This document shows, in pieces, positions 44,004-52,404 of a stretch of 64,000 nt of DNA. Source of the stretch: Cohaesibacter intestini (GTDB taxonomy: Bacteria > Pseudomonadota > Alphaproteobacteria > Rhizobiales > Cohaesibacteraceae); NCBI RefSeq assembly GCF_003324485.1, contig NZ_QODK01000003.1, forward strand, positions 62,001-126,000, read 5' to 3'. Position numbers and translations under genes: made by a program. How positions within the stretch are numbered: the first letter of the stretch is position 1; the number at the start of each line of letters is the position of its first letter. The notes beneath the pieces were generated by a model, which was given only the letters and a program-made list of their open reading frames with translations, was not told where the DNA came from and ran no database searches.

Positions 44004-44696
44004 TCAACCAACCACAATGACATGAACGGACCGCGGCCCGTGTGCCCCCAACAGGATAGTCTGCTCAATGTCGCCGGAGCGCGACGGGCCTGTTACCCGG
44101 TTGATGACCCGCGGCATTTGTGACACACCCTGCTCATCGCGCAGGCGCTCCTGCACGCTCTCATAATCCCCGGCAATATCATCTGCATGGACCACGATAA
44201 TGTGATCCTCGGGCAGGAAATTGAGCGTGGTGGGATTGTCCGGACCGGACAGGAAAATCGCGGTGCCGGTCTCAGCCACGCCACCCAAGGCATGGGTCAC
44301 GCCAACCAGATCTGTGCCGTCCGACGGGCCGACTTTGCGTTCAAGCTGTGGCTCGGATGCCCAATTGGCGGATGCCAGTCGCGGGTCAGACCCGGTGCGG
44401 ATTTGCTGAGGCAGGTTGCGACCCCGCAAATAGGCACCAATCGCAGCGGGCAGGGCGTCATAATCGGCAATGCGGTTGACCGTCGAGGCGGCTTTTTCCG
44501 CATAATCAAGGAACATCTGCACCTGAGCCTCATGCTCGATCTGACCGCGGGCAGGCAAAATGCCCCGGTCCCGCTTGGAAAGCCGCTCGGCCACCGCGGC
44601 CTTACGCTGTTCCAAACCCTCGTCATTGGCAGCCGAGCCCAAAGACCGGCGGATCTTGCCTAGGATCGCGGATTTGGCGGATGATGGCGCGCTCAT
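44004..44696 (-). CDS. lutC: Lactate utilization protein C (LUD domain)
   Basis: Third subunit of the LutABC iron-sulfur L-lactate oxidation system. The 230-residue LUD-domain protein has LVGVTHALGGVAETGTAIFL and the end RSGDIEQTILLGAHGPRSVH. The start at 44696 is set by a 4-base ATGA overlap with the lutB stop, indicating translational coupling. Order on the minus strand is lutR, lutA, lutB, lutC. Confidence 0.92.
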   Translation of the reverse strand: MSAPSSAKSAILGKIRRSLGSAANDEGLEQRKAAVAERLSKRDRGILPARGQIEHEAQVQMFLDYAEKAASTVNRIADYDALPAAIGAYLRGRNLPQQIRTGSDPRLASANWASEPQLERKVGPSDGTDLVGVTHALGGVAETGTAIFLSGPDNPTTLNFLPEDHIIVVHADDIAGDYESVQERLRDEQGVSQMPRVINRVTGPSRSGDIEQTILLGAHGPRSVHVIVVG

Positions 44697-46123
44697 GAGG
44701 CTTTCCTCTTCTTCTGTTCTGCTGCCCACATTTGCTGGAAGGTGCTGCCTTCCGGCGCTGGCAACTCGCGATGCTTTGTCCATGCCCCGGTCATCGGCAG
44801 CTTCTGCATCAGGCCGGTCATCGGCGCGAGATGTTTCATCACCCCCATGCCAAAGCCCATCAGCGCGTGATAGAGCGCCGGGCGAGTGGCAAGGAAGGCC
44901 CAGCTTTTGAGACCCCAGCGCTGGGTCGATGGGTTGAGATGGCGTTCATATTCCTTTTCCCGCCAATGACGCATCATTTTCGGCAGCGGAATTTTCATCG
45001 GGCAGACGCTTTCGCAGCGGCCACAGAAGGTTGAGGCATTGGGCAAATGGCCCGCCTTGTCAACGCCGATCAGCGATGGCGTCAGCACCGAGCCCATCGG
45101 GCCGGGATAGACCCAGCCATAGGCATGGCCGCCGACCGCATGATAGACCGGACAGTGATTCATACAGGCCCCGCAGCGGATACAGCGCAGCATTTCCTCA
45201 AATTCGGTGCCGAGCATCGACGAGCGGCCATTGTCCAAGAGGATCACATGATACTGCTCCGGACCGTCCGGGTCTTCTTCCCGTCGAGGCCCGGTGGAGA
45301 AGGTGGTATAGACGCTCTGTTCCTGCCCGGTGGCTGAGCGAGCCAACAGACGCAGCAACTGGTCCGCATCATTCATCGTCGGCACGATCTTTTCGAGCGA
45401 CGCCAACACCACATGCACCCGTGACAGGGTCTGGGTCAGATCGCCATTGCCCTCATTGGTGACGATGACCGACGAGCCCGTCTCGGCAATCAGGAAATTG
45501 GCCCCGGTGATGCCCACATCGGCGGCGAAATATTGCTCACGCAACACTTCACGCGCTTCCCCCAGCATCGAGGTGGCTTCGCTCAGATCACGATCGGCGG
45601 CCAGATGGGTATGGACCCGGCGGAAATCCTCTTCCACCTGATCCTTGGTCACATGCACCGCAGGCGCGATAATGTGACTTGGATGCTCGCCGCGCAGCTG
45701 GATGATATATTCCCCCAGATCCGTTTCGACCACATTCAGCCCGTCTTTCTCCAGAAATGCATTCAGTTGCATTTCTTCGGAAATCATCGACTTGCCCTTG
45801 GTGATGGTCTTGGCATTGACGGATTCGCAAATCTGCTTGACGATTTTGCAGGCATCCTCAGCGGTTTCCGCCCAATGGACATGACCTCCGCTGGCGGTGA
45901 CCTTCTCTTCATATTCCTCAAGATAGAGGTCCAGATGCTTTAAGGTATGGGTCTTGATATCCCGGCCCACATCGCGCAAATCCTCAAATTCCGGCAGGGC
46001 GTCGACTGCCATCTGGCGCTTGCCAATGAAGCCGGTTTCGATATTTTTCAGCGCCTTTTGCAGCGTCTGATTGGCCAGCGCGTCTCTGGCATTCTCTTTA
46101 AAGGTCGGTGAGGTGATTTTCAT
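44693..46123 (-). CDS. lutB: Lactate utilization iron-sulfur protein B
   Basis: A 476-residue LutB. The N-terminal LUD-like domain has KSMISEEMQLNAFLEKDGLN and ETGSSVIVTNEGNGDLTQTL; the C-terminal ferredoxin part has two four-cysteine [4Fe-4S] motifs, CIRCGACMNHCPVY and CGRCESVCPMKIP. It would carry electrons from lactate oxidation. It lies 30 bases after lutA and overlaps lutC. Confidence 0.95.
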   Translation of the reverse strand: MKITSPTFKENARDALANQTLQKALKNIETGFIGKRQMAVDALPEFEDLRDVGRDIKTHTLKHLDLYLEEYEEKVTASGGHVHWAETAEDACKIVKQICESVNAKTITKGKSMISEEMQLNAFLEKDGLNVVETDLGEYIIQLRGEHPSHIIAPAVHVTKDQVEEDFRRVHTHLAADRDLSEATSMLGEAREVLREQYFAADVGITGANFLIAETGSSVIVTNEGNGDLTQTLSRVHVVLASLEKIVPTMNDADQLLRLLARSATGQEQSVYTTFSTGPRREEDPDGPEQYHVILLDNGRSSMLGTEFEEMLRCIRCGACMNHCPVYHAVGGHAYGWVYPGPMGSVLTPSLIGVDKAGHLPNASTFCGRCESVCPMKIPLPKMMRHWREKEYERHLNPSTQRWGLKSWAFLATRPALYHALMGFGMGVMKHLAPMTGLMQKLPMTGAWTKHRELPAPEGSTFQQMWAAEQKKRKAS

Positions 46124-46153
46124 GTTGGTCCCCTAAGGCTGGTCCCCGAAGGG

Positions 46154-46975
46154 TCAACGGCCCGGCTTCTCGCCGATGGCCGGTTGGTCGGTCATGCCCG
46201 CAAGCACTTCGGCCACATGGCGCACTTCGATGGCCGAACCCTGCCGTTTCAGCTTGCCCGCCATATTCATCAGGCAGCCAAGGTCGCCCGCCAAAAGGGT
46301 CGTCACATCGGCTTTTTCTGCATTGCCGGTCTTCTTGGTGACGATGGCGTCGGACACATCGGGATATTTGACGCAGAAGGTGCCGCCAAAGCCGCAGCAA
46401 ACGTCGCTATCCTGCATTTCCTTTAGCGCCACCCCGTCAATCGAGGAGAGCAGCTTGCGTGGCTGCTTTTCGATCTTCAACTCGCGAAGCCCCGAGCAGC
46501 TGTCATGATAGGTAACAGTGCCCTCGAACTGTGAGGCAACGCTCTCCAGCCCTGCCACATCGACCAGAAAACTGACCAATTCATGGGTTTTGCCCGACAG
46601 GCTTTCCGCCCGTGCGGCCCAGTTTGGTTCATCGGCGAAGAGACCCGGATAATGCTTGACGATCATCGCGGTACAGGACCCCGATGGTGCGACCACATAA
46701 TCATAGTCTTCGAAGGCCTTGATCACCTGTTTGGCCACCTTTTTGGCATCCTGCTTGTCGCCCGAATTATAGGCCGGCTGGCCACAACAGGTCTGATCCC
46801 GCGGGACCTCGAGAGAGAAGCCCGCCGCTTCAATCAGCTTGACTGCTGCAAAGCCGACAGAGGGGCGGAAAAGGTCAACAAGGCAGGTGACAAACAGGCC
46901 GACCCGTTTGCCCTTGGCCTGTGTCTCTTCGCCGTTCGAAGCCTCAGCTTCCAGATTCAATTCGATTTGGTCCAT
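46154..46975 (-). CDS. lutA: Lactate utilization protein A (two CCG domains)
   Basis: A 273-residue protein with two cysteine-rich CCG domains: DQTCCGQPAYNSG in the first and DVCCGFGGTFCVKYP in the second, as in LutA and GlpC/HdrB-type subunits. The first ~22 residues (MDQIELNLEAEASNGEETQA) are acidic and precede the conserved GLFVTCLVDLFRPS. It may bind a noncubane iron-sulfur cluster. First structural gene of lutABC, 94 bases after lutR. Confidence 0.93.
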   Translation of the reverse strand: MDQIELNLEAEASNGEETQAKGKRVGLFVTCLVDLFRPSVGFAAVKLIEAAGFSLEVPRDQTCCGQPAYNSGDKQDAKKVAKQVIKAFEDYDYVVAPSGSCTAMIVKHYPGLFADEPNWAARAESLSGKTHELVSFLVDVAGLESVASQFEGTVTYHDSCSGLRELKIEKQPRKLLSSIDGVALKEMQDSDVCCGFGGTFCVKYPDVSDAIVTKKTGNAEKADVTTLLAGDLGCLMNMAGKLKRQGSAIEVRHVAEVLAGMTDQPAIGEKPGR

Positions 46976-47069
46976 CTTGTTCGGTCCGGTTCATTGGGTG
47001 ATTGCGTTTTTGATTGATAAGTCTGGGAAGGGCAGGCGCGGCCTGTTGCGCCAGAAATCCCTTCATTCA

Positions 47070-47858
47070 TCACGATCCCTGCTTGCCACCATTGCGGTCT
47101 GCCAGTTGCGACAGGCGCATGCGGGAAATCTCTTCCCAGCTGCCCGCTTGCTGGGTGCGGTTGATGGTATGTTCCACATAGTCGATATGGCGCTGGGCCG
47201 TGATCCGGGCTTCCTTGGGTTGCTTGTTCATGATGGCTTCGTGGATCTGTTCATGCTGGGCCAGCAAGGCTTCCTGCACCCCCGGCCATTCATACAGCCG
47301 GATGCGACTGTAAAAGAGGCCTTCCGACAGCAACCGATAGCAGGAGCGCATCGTATGCATCATCAGCATATTGTGCGAAGCTTCAACGATCGCCTGATGG
47401 AACTCGAAGTCAGCCTCGCTCTCCTTCTGAAGATCGCCTTCTTCGTGATAGCCGCGCATCGATTTCATGATCCGGGTCAGGATCAGCTTGTCCGCATCGG
47501 TGGCGCGCAAGGCAGCATGCTCGGCGATAATGCCCTCCATGTCGCGGCGAAATTCAAAATAGTCACTCTGGGCTTTCGGGTGGCGACGGATCAGGTCAAA
47601 AATCTCATCGGTAAAGACCGTACCCACCACATTGGCCACATAAGTGCCGCCCCCATGGCGCGACCGCAGCAAGTTGCGCTGTTCGAGATCCTTCAGAGCA
47701 TCCCTCAAAACCGGACGGGAAATATCAAGCTGGGTGGCGAGGTCGCGCTCCGGTGGCAGCTTGTCGCCCGGGCGCAGCACCCCTTCCAGAATTAGCCGCT
47801 CCAACTGATTGACCACGGCGTCTGATGTACGATTCTGACTGATGGAGCTGAAAATCAT
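47070..47858 (-). CDS. FadR-type GntR regulator of the lut cluster
   Basis: A 262-residue regulator: GntR winged helix (ILEGVLRPGDKLPPERDLAT, then QLDISRPVLRDALKDLEQRN) and an FCD ligand domain (about residues 95-240) with a helical metal/ligand pocket (FEFHQAIVEASHN). It is read in the same direction as lutABC and is likely the first gene of that transcript; LldR/LutR-type proteins repress lactate genes until lactate binds. A palindrome (48001-48021) lies about 140 bases upstream, between it and the divergent TRAP-like genes. The name lutR is descriptive. Confidence 0.9.
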   Translation of the reverse strand: MIFSSISQNRTSDAVVNQLERLILEGVLRPGDKLPPERDLATQLDISRPVLRDALKDLEQRNLLRSRHGGGTYVANVVGTVFTDEIFDLIRRHPKAQSDYFEFRRDMEGIIAEHAALRATDADKLILTRIMKSMRGYHEEGDLQKESEADFEFHQAIVEASHNMLMMHTMRSCYRLLSEGLFYSRIRLYEWPGVQEALLAQHEQIHEAIMNKQPKEARITAQRHIDYVEHTINRTQQAGSWEEISRMRLSQLADRNGGKQGS

Positions 47859-48000: not shown

Positions 48001-48021
48001 TTGGTAAATTTATTTTACCAA
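48001..48021. promoter_or_regulatory. Candidate operator of the FadR-type regulator
   Basis: TTGGTAAA (48001-48008) and TTTACCAA (48014-48021), perfect arms with a 5-base centre. The outer TTGGT/ACCAA matches the half-sites used by many FadR-type GntR regulators, although their usual spacer is shorter. Position between lutR and the TRAP-like genes allows control of both. Confidence 0.65.
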
Positions 48022-48311: not shown

Positions 48312-48443
48312 ATGATTGATCCCAAGCCATTGCAAAGTATGATGACCTTTGTGATGTGGTTGGGTGCGGTCTGCTTTTTTGTTGTGTCATGCTGCGCGAA
48401 GGAATTGCTGATGGGGCGCATCCCTATCGGACGCAACCAATGA
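48312..48443 (+). CDS. Possible small membrane protein upstream of the TRAP-like pair
   Basis: A 43-residue ORF, MIDPKPLQSMMTFVMWLGAV onwards, with one hydrophobic helix and a short basic tail. AGGGACG precedes the ATG, and it ends 25 bases before the DctQ-like start on the same strand. Membrane peptides of this size do occur in transporter operons, but no relatives are known to me. Confidence 0.35.
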   Translation: MIDPKPLQSMMTFVMWLGAVCFFVVSCCAKELLMGRIPIGRNQ

Positions 48444-48468
48444 CCAGAGCGAAAGGGGGAACGCTTAG

Positions 48469-49563
48469 ATGACCGGCTTGATTTGCGCCCTTTTGTCTGT
48501 GGTGGCTGCGTTGGCATGTTTTGTTCTGCGCCCGGATCTGGTGGCTTTTGCTTTCATTTTGGCTGCTCTGTTGGCGTTTGTCGCGGTCATCCGCAAGGCG
48601 AGACCGATCTTCCTGTTACTCGCTTTTCTGATTGGCGCGGAAGTGTTCGCGATCCATCCTCTTGGCCTTCAGGCGGTGATCAATCGCTTTGGCTCACCCC
48701 ATGGCGTCACCATGGATCTGGGCAATCTGGTTCATTTCATTGCAGCTCTGCTTGGTGCGCTATTCATCGCGGCATTGGTGTTTATGATCAGTTGCCGCAA
48801 GCATCCCGGTGGGGCCCGTTTCAGCGCCTATGAAGCAAGCGGGGATATTGAAAGTGTGATCACCGGGTTTGCTCGCTTGTCGGCCCTGTTTTATCTGCCC
48901 TTGCTGATCCTTCCCCTCTATTTTGCTTCCACCGCCACTCAGCCGGTCGATCAATTGCCGCTCAATCTGGTGTCCTGGCAGGATGCACCGATGCTGTCCG
49001 CCAGACCGGAAATCCAGATGTTTGTCTGGTTCAGTGCCATTATCATGCTTGGTGGCATGGCGGCGGCCTGTGTTGGCAATGTTCATCATCGCTATCTTCT
49101 GATACGCCAGAAGCAGTCTCCTCGCATACAGGCCTGGTTCGATATTGTCGGATCACTGCTGTTGTTGCTGCCTGCCTGTTGGGTGATGGCTGAGGCTGGT
49201 TGGGCCCATGCGACCTTGGCGCGCGACCAAAGTGCGGTCACCATGGCGCTCGACGCTCTCTTGCCCGGATTGTCGGTGCCGCAATGGGGCTTCTATATCA
49301 TGTTTCCCGCAGCGTTCCTGCTCCTCGGGCTGGCGGGCCTCAGTCTCATTCTGCGCTCGCTGATCTTCCTTTACGGCCCCCACTATCTGGTCAAGCGTTC
49401 GGCGACCCATCTGGAGCTTGTTTCAGGGTCAACCGGAAAAGGTGACCAGCCGTCGGCTGTGCCTTCAAGGTCGGAAGGGCGGGTCAACCCGGCTAGAACC
49501 AAAACAAAACTGGACGAAGATCAATCGACCAAACAACATTCGTCCGGAGAACAGTTGGCATGA
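48469..49563 (+). CDS. Divergent TRAP small-permease (DctQ)-like protein with extra N-terminal helices
   Basis: A 364-residue membrane protein. The core (about 125-320) fits DctQ: FARLSALFYLPLLILPLYFA, FVWFSAIIMLGGMAAACVGN, VHHRYLLIRQKQSPRIQAWF, DIVGSLLLLLPACWVMAE and PQWGFYIMFPAAFLLLGLAG. Typical DctQ proteins are about 160-200 residues; here about 115 residues with some four helices are added in front, and a ~45-residue polar tail behind. AAAGGGGGAACG precedes the ATG, and the stop overlaps the next gene (ATGA). No DctP binding protein is nearby. Confidence 0.72.
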   Translation: MTGLICALLSVVAALACFVLRPDLVAFAFILAALLAFVAVIRKARPIFLLLAFLIGAEVFAIHPLGLQAVINRFGSPHGVTMDLGNLVHFIAALLGALFIAALVFMISCRKHPGGARFSAYEASGDIESVITGFARLSALFYLPLLILPLYFASTATQPVDQLPLNLVSWQDAPMLSARPEIQMFVWFSAIIMLGGMAAACVGNVHHRYLLIRQKQSPRIQAWFDIVGSLLLLLPACWVMAEAGWAHATLARDQSAVTMALDALLPGLSVPQWGFYIMFPAAFLLLGLAGLSLILRSLIFLYGPHYLVKRSATHLELVSGSTGKGDQPSAVPSRSEGRVNPARTKTKLDEDQSTKQHSSGEQLA

Positions 49564-50996
49564 TCGAGGCGTCCGTTCAGACACTTCTGCCAATCTGGCA
49601 AAGCCACGCGCCGGACTTGCTGTTGATTGCCGCATTGCTGATGCTGCTGACCGGCTATCCGATCGCCTTCATTCTTGGTGGTCTGGCTTTTTTGTTTGCT
49701 CTGTTTGGTGATCTGTCCGGGCTTGTTCATCTTGCCGACTATCACAGCCTTCCAGCCCAGATTTTCAACCAGATCCTGCTCGATCCGGCGTTGCTTGCTC
49801 TGCCTTTGTTATTGTTCTTCTGCGAACTGATGATCGAAACCGGGCAGATGGCCGGCCTCTCCCACGCGCTCAAAAGCCAGTTCCAACTGCCCTGTTCAGG
49901 GGCCAATGCAGCAGCTCAACCGCACCGACTCCGGAATTCACGACCAAAATCCAGCAAGCCTCAAGCTCCGGAACGCTCGATCTTCATGACACTCTTTGTC
50001 CCCGGAGCCGTGCTCGGCATCGTCCTGGCGCGGACGTTTGAAATACCAACCGAGTTTTTAACCCTTGGCTTGTTGCCCATCGCTCTCGTTCTGGTGGGTC
50101 TTTATGTGACCAACTGGATCCTTGGTATGTGGGTTGAGTTGGGCCATCAGACTCTCAAACAGGACTGGCTCTCCGGTGCCACCGGCTATCCTGAGGGCGC
50201 GCCGCCTCCAGGCAGAAAGCCGTCCCGATTTTCCATGCTGACGCGTTTGTTGCCGCCGCTTCTGTTGGGTGGTGGTGCGCTCATCCTGCTAACGCAATAT
50301 CGGGTGTCCCTCTTTGCGACCCTTGCCATTCTCTCTCTCGGTCTCATTCTGGTTGCCATTTGTCATGGGCGTTTGGGGCCGAGCCTTCTGTTGCAGGTGA
50401 TGAACCGGGCGGCGGTGACCGCAGGGGCCGTCGCGGCCATTCTTATTGCTGCCTACAGTTTTCATATGGTCTATTTGGATCTTGGTGGCGCGCTGAGGCT
50501 GGAGCAACTGGCATCGCTTATCGTGCCGCCTGATAGCGGGCCGCAACCATGGCTGGCCCTGATTGCCCTTTTGGCAGCGTTGGCCTTGCTGGGGCTGGTT
50601 TTGGACTGGTTGATCTTGGCGGTGATGGTGGTTCCCCTGCTGATGCCCATTTTTACGCATATGGATTTCAACAGCCTTCTGACGCCCAAATGGGCCGGCA
50701 TTGGCACCCGGCTGGCCTCAATCCAACCATCTAACTTGCTGACGGCGAATGAGATAATCATTCAGGCGAAGCTCTGGTTCGCAGCCCTGTTGTGGCTCTC
50801 CCTTATCTCGGGGCTGGTCACCTACGCCAAGCAAAATGGCGAATTGGTTATAAAAACACTTGCGCCGGACCTCAGAAAGACTCAAACTGGCCCGATCAGC
50901 TTGCTATTGTTCATCATGCTTCAGTTGATTGGGTTGGCGGCCTGTCTGATCAGGCCTGAAACCGTACTGTGGCTGCCTTCGCTCTTGATACAGTGA
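49560..50996 (+). CDS. Divergent TRAP large-permease (DctM)-like protein lacking hallmark motifs
   Basis: A 478-residue membrane protein. Its start follows DctM of the mannitol/chloroaromatic type (LLMLLTGYPIAFILGGLAFL, LLDPALLALPLLLFFCELMI), and its second half keeps LLPPLLLGGGALI, LIAAYSFHMVYLDLGG and LVLDWLILAVMVVPLLMPIF. However the segment that should carry the G-x-I-x-PPS helical hairpin is replaced by a polar linker (about residues 112-140, RNSRPKSSKPQAP), ATPTEAA reads YRVSLFATLA, and the TPPFG motif near the end is absent (IQPSNLLTANEI). Such losses hit the sodium/substrate sites, so transport by the normal TRAP mechanism is doubtful. Coupled to the DctQ-like gene. Confidence 0.7.
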   Translation: MIEASVQTLLPIWQSHAPDLLLIAALLMLLTGYPIAFILGGLAFLFALFGDLSGLVHLADYHSLPAQIFNQILLDPALLALPLLLFFCELMIETGQMAGLSHALKSQFQLPCSGANAAAQPHRLRNSRPKSSKPQAPERSIFMTLFVPGAVLGIVLARTFEIPTEFLTLGLLPIALVLVGLYVTNWILGMWVELGHQTLKQDWLSGATGYPEGAPPPGRKPSRFSMLTRLLPPLLLGGGALILLTQYRVSLFATLAILSLGLILVAICHGRLGPSLLLQVMNRAAVTAGAVAAILIAAYSFHMVYLDLGGALRLEQLASLIVPPDSGPQPWLALIALLAALALLGLVLDWLILAVMVVPLLMPIFTHMDFNSLLTPKWAGIGTRLASIQPSNLLTANEIIIQAKLWFAALLWLSLISGLVTYAKQNGELVIKTLAPDLRKTQTGPISLLLFIMLQLIGLAACLIRPETVLWLPSLLIQ

Positions 50997-52014: not shown

Positions 52015-52404
52015 TTATTCAGCAAAGCCTTTGAGATACTCGATGACATTGTCGCGGTCTTTTTCTTTCTTCAGACCAGCAAATGCCATTTTGTTGCCTT
52101 TGATGAATTTCTTGGGCTTGGTCAGATAAGCGTGCAGATTGTCCGCGTTCCAAACAAAATCCGCTTCGGCTTCAGCTTTCTCGGTGAAGGCTTTGGAATA
52201 TTTGAACCCTTCGACAGATGCGATCTTGCGGCCAACAATGCCATTGAGGATCGGGCCGACCTTATTCTTGGCTTTCTCGCCAACCTGATGGCAGGCTTTG
52301 CACTTTTTGAAGACTTTTTCGCCTTTTTTGGCATCGCCTTCAGCAAGGGCTGCACCGGTCATTGCAAGTACCGCGATCGCGGCAACGGAAACGAGACGCT
52401 TCAT
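52015..52404 (-). CDS. Periplasmic class I cytochrome c (c2/c550-like)
   Basis: A 129-residue exported cytochrome: signal peptide (about 1-21, ending GAALA), heme attachment CKACH (residues 35-39), and an axial Met in GNKMAFAGLKKEKDRDNVIE. The WNADNLHAYLTKPKKFIKGN stretch is typical of cytochrome c2. It can shuttle electrons between the bc1 complex and an oxidase such as the one whose assembly genes open the window; that link is inference. Lysine-rich, as expected for an electron shuttle. Confidence 0.95.
   Translation of the reverse strand: MKRLVSVAAIAVLAMTGAALAEGDAKKGEKVFKKCKACHQVGEKAKNKVGPILNGIVGRKIASVEGFKYSKAFTEKAEAEADFVWNADNLHAYLTKPKKFIKGNKMAFAGLKKEKDRDNVIEYLKGFAE

Follow-up and report, generated by a model that had tools for sequence, protein, structure and literature searches.

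A DctQ/DctM-derived membrane pair without DctP and without TRAP hallmark motifs lies beside lutABC in Cohaesibacter

We identified a TRAP-derived DctQ/DctM pair without DctP in the marine bacterium Cohaesibacter, within the window, the whole 64,000-nucleotide stretch of Cohaesibacter intestini DNA analysed here. The two genes, termed Q and M, run divergently from a minus-strand lutC-lutB-lutA-lutR block (44004-47858). Beyond M lie, all assigned by eye, a putative acetyltransferase gene (gnat), a c-type cytochrome gene in the opposite orientation and a GGDEF gene. The features of the locus are as follows:

44004..44783, minus strand: lutC (LUD domain, PF02589)
44693..46123, minus strand: lutB, passing the LutB equivalog model TIGR00273 (472.1 bits, cut-off 444.8)
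46154..46975, minus strand: lutA (CCG domain, PF02754)
47070..47858, minus strand: lutR-like GntR/FCD regulator (PF00392, PF07729)
48001..48021, no strand assigned: palindrome TTGGTAAATTTATTTTACCAA, TTGGT-N11-ACCAA, possible LutR operator
48469..49563, plus strand: Q, DctQ-derived small subunit, 364 aa (ORF, PF04290, orthologues, hydropathy)
49560..49563, plus strand: ATGA, overlap of the Q stop and the M start
49560..50996, plus strand: M, DctM-derived large subunit, 478 aa, without HPin, PPS, TPTEAA and TPPFG (ORF, alignments)
49875..49979, plus strand: polar, basic linker at the HPin site, M residues 106-140 (alignment)
50820..50843, plus strand: TYAKQNGE, the codons of M 421-428, an instance of T[YF]x[RK]Q[NS]GE at the former TPPFG site
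52015-52404, strand opposite to Q and M: small c-type cytochrome gene (CxxCH, by eye)

The initial annotation had the pair begin at 48312; the true start of Q is 48469, the first ATG after the stop, and it matches the starts of the orthologues. That both frames are open and coupled by ATGA was borne out by the ORF list and the gene overlap. The two genes overlap in all ten loci that carry this type of pair, hereafter called degenerate (as ATGA in eight), whereas Q and M stand 2-43 bp apart at each of the 11 canonical loci for which the distance was measured. Family models recognise the pair only faintly: Q scored 26.5 bits against PF04290, under the cut-off of 28.3, with residues 190-297 matched, and M scored 32 bits against PF06808 in a six-frame search (cut-off 23.8). 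By hmmscan the M protein had no Pfam or NCBIfam match, and the DctM model matched one of the ten degenerate M proteins (E up to 0.1). According to hydropathy, about four N-terminal helices, which run together, precede the DctQ-like part of Q.

The pair shares common descent and synteny with DctPQM transporters. Twelve canonical relatives, chosen from the best matches, were inspected in their genomic context, and all twelve loci encode DctP, DctQ and a DctM in which none of the four motif patterns is missing. Nine occupy the same slot, with lutCBA (lutR detected or not) divergent from dctP-dctQ-dctM; no lut genes were found in the stretches fetched for the other three. The lut-linked DctPQM systems, which come from families of the same order outside that of Cohaesibacter (L049, L097-L102, L064 and L066), resemble the pair in the framework segments and the C-terminal QLIGL..P..WLP of DctM and, for the most part, in a long DctQ, but differ in having their own DctP, HPin, IPPS, TPTEAA and TPPFG-type motifs and no overlap between Q and M. 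The initial annotation had regarded a DctP beside canonical relatives as a case against its proposal; such a gene was present at 12 of 12 loci, yet these represent the ancestral form in other families or genera and provide no DctP for this pair. DctQ is long in eight of the twelve (318-356 aa, with ATG or GTG starts) and shorter in four (164-243 aa). Thus, the four or so extra N-terminal helices that had been claimed for Q fit its hydropathy but are ancestral rather than new, and it is the losses in M that are new. A c-type cytochrome gene was also seen beyond the TRAP genes in eight of the nine lut-linked canonical loci (L049, L066 and L097-L102), as it was in the window and the nine orthologue loci.

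In a tree of 23 M proteins (10 degenerate and 13 canonical), the degenerate proteins formed one clade with support of 100/100 on a stem of 4.51 changes per column, against a maximum of 0.61 for the other inner branches among canonical rows and 0.89 within the degenerate clade. This clade was tentatively placed inside a group of close canonical M proteins by a fork supported at 89/70. With so long a stem the exact placement is unsure, and synteny is the stronger evidence of orthology. The DctQ/DctM arrangement and its framework segments have been kept, as had been noted at first sight. A word search of the literature in one open-licence library found no such degenerate DctQ/DctM pair.

The TRAP transporters that have been studied rely on two hairpins and two sodium sites as well as on a binding protein. 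Loss of the TRAP hallmarks from the pair is well supported. When aligned to 13 canonical relatives, all ten degenerate M proteins have a polar linker of 35-45 residues in place of HPin, with K+R at least equal to D+E. In the TM5 motif IPPS the first proline is kept and the second is G, A or V (10/10), and in the TM11 motif TPPFG the T is kept and both prolines are gone (10/10). TPTEAA is absent, its E (E259 in L049 M) having become A or T in all ten. The losses that had been read by eye from the one locus, namely the PPS-type hairpin region with its polar replacement, ATPTEAA and TPPFG, therefore extend to every orthologue. The alignment of degenerate M contained no displaced copies of the lost motifs, and the only stray matches, PPS at 413 (L041) and TG..GS at 446 (L047), lie elsewhere in the protein. 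As a control, eight other DctM loci from the 33 six-frame PF06808 matches in the same genome showed PPS in 8/8, TPTEA-type in 6/8 and TPP.G-type motifs in 7/8, while the HPin pattern matched 0/8, an unfair test outside close relatives. Degenerate M does retain the HPout G and DW (including G345 and D349), the first TM5 proline, T421 and the C-terminal helix.

We mapped these losses on solved SiaPQM structures (7qha/8b01, 8thi/8thj, 7qe5 and 8y4w/8y4x), to which the pair is homologous via its canonical relatives. According to the passages of PMC9971032 on the Photobacterium profundum transporter, Na1 is flanked by the HPin loop (S103, S106) on one side and the TM5 break (G145, V148, P150) on the other, and Na2 likewise by HPout (G325) and the TM11 break (G366, T369, M372). 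L049 M matched 7qha_B at E 8.5e-30; in this alignment ATTGIIGAS coincides with the HPin loop, ILIPPS pairs with L147-S151, TPP with T369-P371 and the TPTEAA glutamate with E237. In contrast to SiaPQM, Cohaesibacter M has lost Na1 and Na2 residues: the Na1 features (HPin loop and TM5 twin proline) are absent from all ten, and of the Na2 features the T and the HPout G are kept and the TM11 prolines lost, again in all ten. The same passages describe a bond between SiaQ R32 and SiaM E237 (PMC9971032), and the relevant text on the H. influenzae system calls its counterpart, R30:E429, strictly conserved (PMC10942642). TPTEAA is therefore a scaffold or Q-contact element near the periplasm, so that the earlier assignment of the lost motifs to the sodium/substrate core stands for HPin and the TM5 and TM11 prolines and falls for TPTEAA. 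In Q, R158 (L049 numbering) is invariant in the canonical alignment A6 and lost in 10 of 10 degenerate proteins. We infer that it is the equivalent of SiaQ R32; the 7qha_A profile match was weak (E 0.61) and did not align R158. Both partners of the presumed Q-M salt bridge, the M glutamate and the Q arginine, have been lost jointly (10/10 each). Since HPin begins and finishes on the cytoplasmic side, as stated in that part of PMC9971032, a polar linker at this site need not disturb the other helices or the topology. The degenerate profile A1 found no solved structure in the PDB at E up to 1, and profile A3 found one unrelated weak match, a potassium channel (E 0.3). AlphaFold2 models from three-sequence alignments (mean pLDDT 43 for M and 48 for Q) were too poor to use.

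The degenerate pair was found in 10 of the 18 genus genomes searched (C. intestini included; most relatives were assigned to the genus from kinship labels), each time beside lutABC. The nine orthologue loci have lutA, lutB and lutC as neighbours and the same gnat-cytochrome-ggdef flank as the window, and their M proteins are 34-72% identical to that of the window. A scan of genome contigs with profile A1 gave two named loci, both from Cohaesibacter (C. celericrescens and C. haloalkalitolerans). Among 397 sampled genomes of the order, with the best four candidates or fewer scored per genome, degenerate M occurred in only the ten genus genomes (648-721 bits), and the next-best matches were canonical M proteins at 97 bits or less. 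Five further genus genomes (G002, G003, G009, G013 and G017) have lutB without the pair, and no lutB was found in G005 (64% complete), G008 or G010 at E up to 1e-100.

The absence of a DctP gene, noted at the outset for this locus, extends to the orthologues: none was found in the nine 19-kb orthologue stretches or, at E up to 1e-30, within the window, and the gaps of the lut loci hold no DctP remnants. It is very improbable that the pair still works as a TRAP transporter with the help of a DctP from another locus. In favour of this reading, a candidate at G000:C2:625408-626469 is the closest match in the C. intestini genome to the lut-linked DctP (43%) and has no adjoining Q-M, the nearest DctM-like gene being some 4 kb off and on the opposite strand; among the nine other pair-bearing genomes, however, only G016 has a DctP as close (51%), and that one sits with its own fused Q-M. 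In addition, neither the sodium sites nor the conserved contact glutamate (E237) survives in M. The G000:C2 DctP gene (L078 5409-6470) stands just before that of a GGDEF-EAL protein (by eye) and may perhaps encode a sensory binding protein. Separately, five genus loci (L070, L071, L072, L073 and L075) combine DctP, 51-53% identical to that of L049, with a fused Q-M protein of 694-698 aa; two of them, L070 and L071, also have a gene for a lutR-like regulator as a neighbour. These fused loci could possibly provide a replacement importer.

The question then arises whether the pair is simply decaying. The initial annotation held that the genes did not look like decaying pseudogenes and that dN/dS well below 1 would support function, and both points are upheld by the orthologues. 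Both frames are open in 10 of 10 pairs. For six chosen pairs of the 45, which share sequences, Nei-Gojobori estimates with 500 bootstraps gave dN/dS of 0.147-0.257 for M (highest 95% upper bound 0.337) and 0.129-0.250 for Q (five of the six, dS being saturated in the sixth; highest upper bound 0.342), and values were low in most membrane segments. With YN00 some pairs gave higher values, the maxima being 0.47 (M) and 0.37 (Q). The neighbouring genes in the same comparisons gave 0.098-0.135 (gnat) and 0.004-0.046 (lutB, both Nei-Gojobori), and the pair is therefore less constrained than these neighbours and more constrained than neutral sequence.

None of the ten pairs contains a stop; interrupted orthologues are limited to scraps, which occur in 4 of the 15 genomes of the genus that bear lut. 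In G002, G003, G009 and G013 the lut genes and the flank are kept and only a scrap of the M C-terminus is left, in the right place and orientation, with a stop in two of the four; E-values for the scraps refer to the set of 15 short gaps, and that of L055 is weak (0.003). The lutB tree places these four genomes within a clade of full support that also contains pair-bearing ones, so that the pair was lost there secondarily, once or several times. G017, which branches deepest in the genus on this tree, has neither the pair nor a credible scrap. Slow decay of the whole pair after loss of DctP, toward the state of these four genomes, would account for the scraps, for their absence from G017, for the very long stem, for the wide divergence of M within the genus and for the higher YN00 values. 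We nevertheless think it improbable, because the Nei-Gojobori upper bounds are all below 0.35, the open frames and the Q/M overlap persist in 10 of 10, new residues are invariant throughout the degenerate clade, and where the pair was lost the crumbling is plain to see.

The losses in M are accompanied by conserved novelty. At 12 sites all ten degenerate proteins share one residue and at least 12 of the 13 canonical proteins share another; such switches include G to Q425, A to G427, L to E428, Q to K105 and I to W186. A further 32 positions are conserved with the same residue in both groups. The motif T[YF]x[RK]Q[NS]GE, with T421, Q425, G427 and E428 invariant, occupies the old TPPFG site, and K105, R139, N185, W186, W191, E89 and W378 are other new invariant polar or tryptophan residues. 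By our reading of the published topology, K105, R139, N185, W186, W191, Q425 and E428 would lie toward the cytoplasm, and E89 and W378 would not.

The expectation that orthologues always sit beside lutR-lutABC held for lutABC in all ten and failed for lutR, which is intact in only three (the window, L039 and L041), so that a role of the pair tied to LutR is unlikely. In L040 lutR was matched over only its first 100 residues or so, in L047 it is a remnant with a stop, and it was not found in L042-L046. Of all 15 lut-bearing genus genomes, 11 keep lutABC without an intact lutR-like gene beside lutA, this gene being either truncated, or decayed and interrupted by a stop, or not found (L040 6953-7246; L047 6917-7144; L042-L046 and L054-L057). 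The palindrome at 48001..48021, at a distance of 142 bp from lutR and some 450 bp from Q, may be a LutR operator. It is kept in place in L041 (no mismatches), in L039 and L040 (one mismatch) and weakly in L053 (two), and was not found at up to one mismatch in ten other genus gaps, all without an intact lutR; among the 11 loci without intact lutR, this possible operator persists only in L040. As 1.5 such sites (one mismatch) are expected by chance in the window, only conservation in place counts. A PdhR-like operator, TGGT-N(2-4)-ACCA, was not found; the longer palindrome was found instead.

The pair combines TRAP ancestry and a place beside lutABC with lost transport motifs, purifying selection and new conserved residues, and our best explanation is that it is a transport-dead TRAP scaffold which has been retained to serve lactate oxidation as a partner in the membrane, a reading to which we give about an even chance. 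The ancestor would have been a lut-linked DctPQM transporter, presumably importing lactate. DctP and the part of DctM that forms the sodium/substrate core would then have disappeared in the ancestor of these Cohaesibacter, and the DctQ-DctM membrane pair would have been retained as a scaffold with a new job. In this scheme the rigid part (the long Q with TM1-3 and TM7-9 of M), together with remodelled TM5-6 and TM11, would form a fixed membrane platform. The basic linker, K105, R139, N185-W186, W191 and RQNGE may dock a cytoplasmic partner, most plausibly LutABC, and docking could bring lactate oxidation to the membrane and the quinone pool, or tune it. We infer the absence of elevator transport, the cytoplasmic partner and its identity from these features. 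The proposal in this specific form, of a non-transporting platform that is a fixed partner of LutABC via the new conserved cytoplasmic-side residues, is tentative and leans toward the unlikely. The neofunctionalised membrane complex suggested by the initial annotation fits what we observe as far as an open, selected pair without TRAP hallmarks beside lut is concerned; the lactate sensing that it also suggested is one possible role. In transporter-derived receptors such as yeast Ssy1 and Snf3, a transporter fold is reported to be reused for another role, as proposed for the pair; these belong to families unrelated to TRAP, and the likeness is one of fold reuse only.

Several observations weigh against the scaffold reading, the higher YN00 values for some pairs among them. 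LutABC does not need the pair in G002, G003, G009, G013 or G017, which bear lut with scraps or nothing of it, and the kept HPout residues G345 and D349 indicate that part of the transport domain survives. The main rival explanation, which we regard as unlikely, is a DctP-independent carrier or channel: the pair would still move lactate, pyruvate or some other anion, but through an altered mechanism that dispenses with both sodium sites of TRAP transporters. The adjoining lutABC, the retained HPout G and DW, TM5 proline, T421 and C-terminal helix, and the low dN/dS across most membrane segments would all suit a carrier. In addition, no LldP/LctP-type permease (PF02652) exceeded the cut-off in the 24 genomes searched. 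However, HPin and both twin-proline breaks are gone, and the relevant passages of PMC9971032 report that the PpSiaQM site mutants S106-S108A (Na1) and T369A (Na2) retain about 3% of transport. Furthermore, four sister genomes keep lutABC with mere scraps of the pair, and the 32 other DctM-matching stretches in the C. intestini genome offer alternative importers.

In conclusion, one syntenic slot provides a before-and-after series, from canonical DctPQM in sister families, through a gutted but selected pair in ten Cohaesibacter genomes, to decayed scraps in four others. This series reveals which parts of the fold are dispensable while the complex is still retained. To our knowledge, how soluble LutABC meets the membrane is unsettled, and if LutABC is indeed the partner of the scaffold, the pair would bear on this question.
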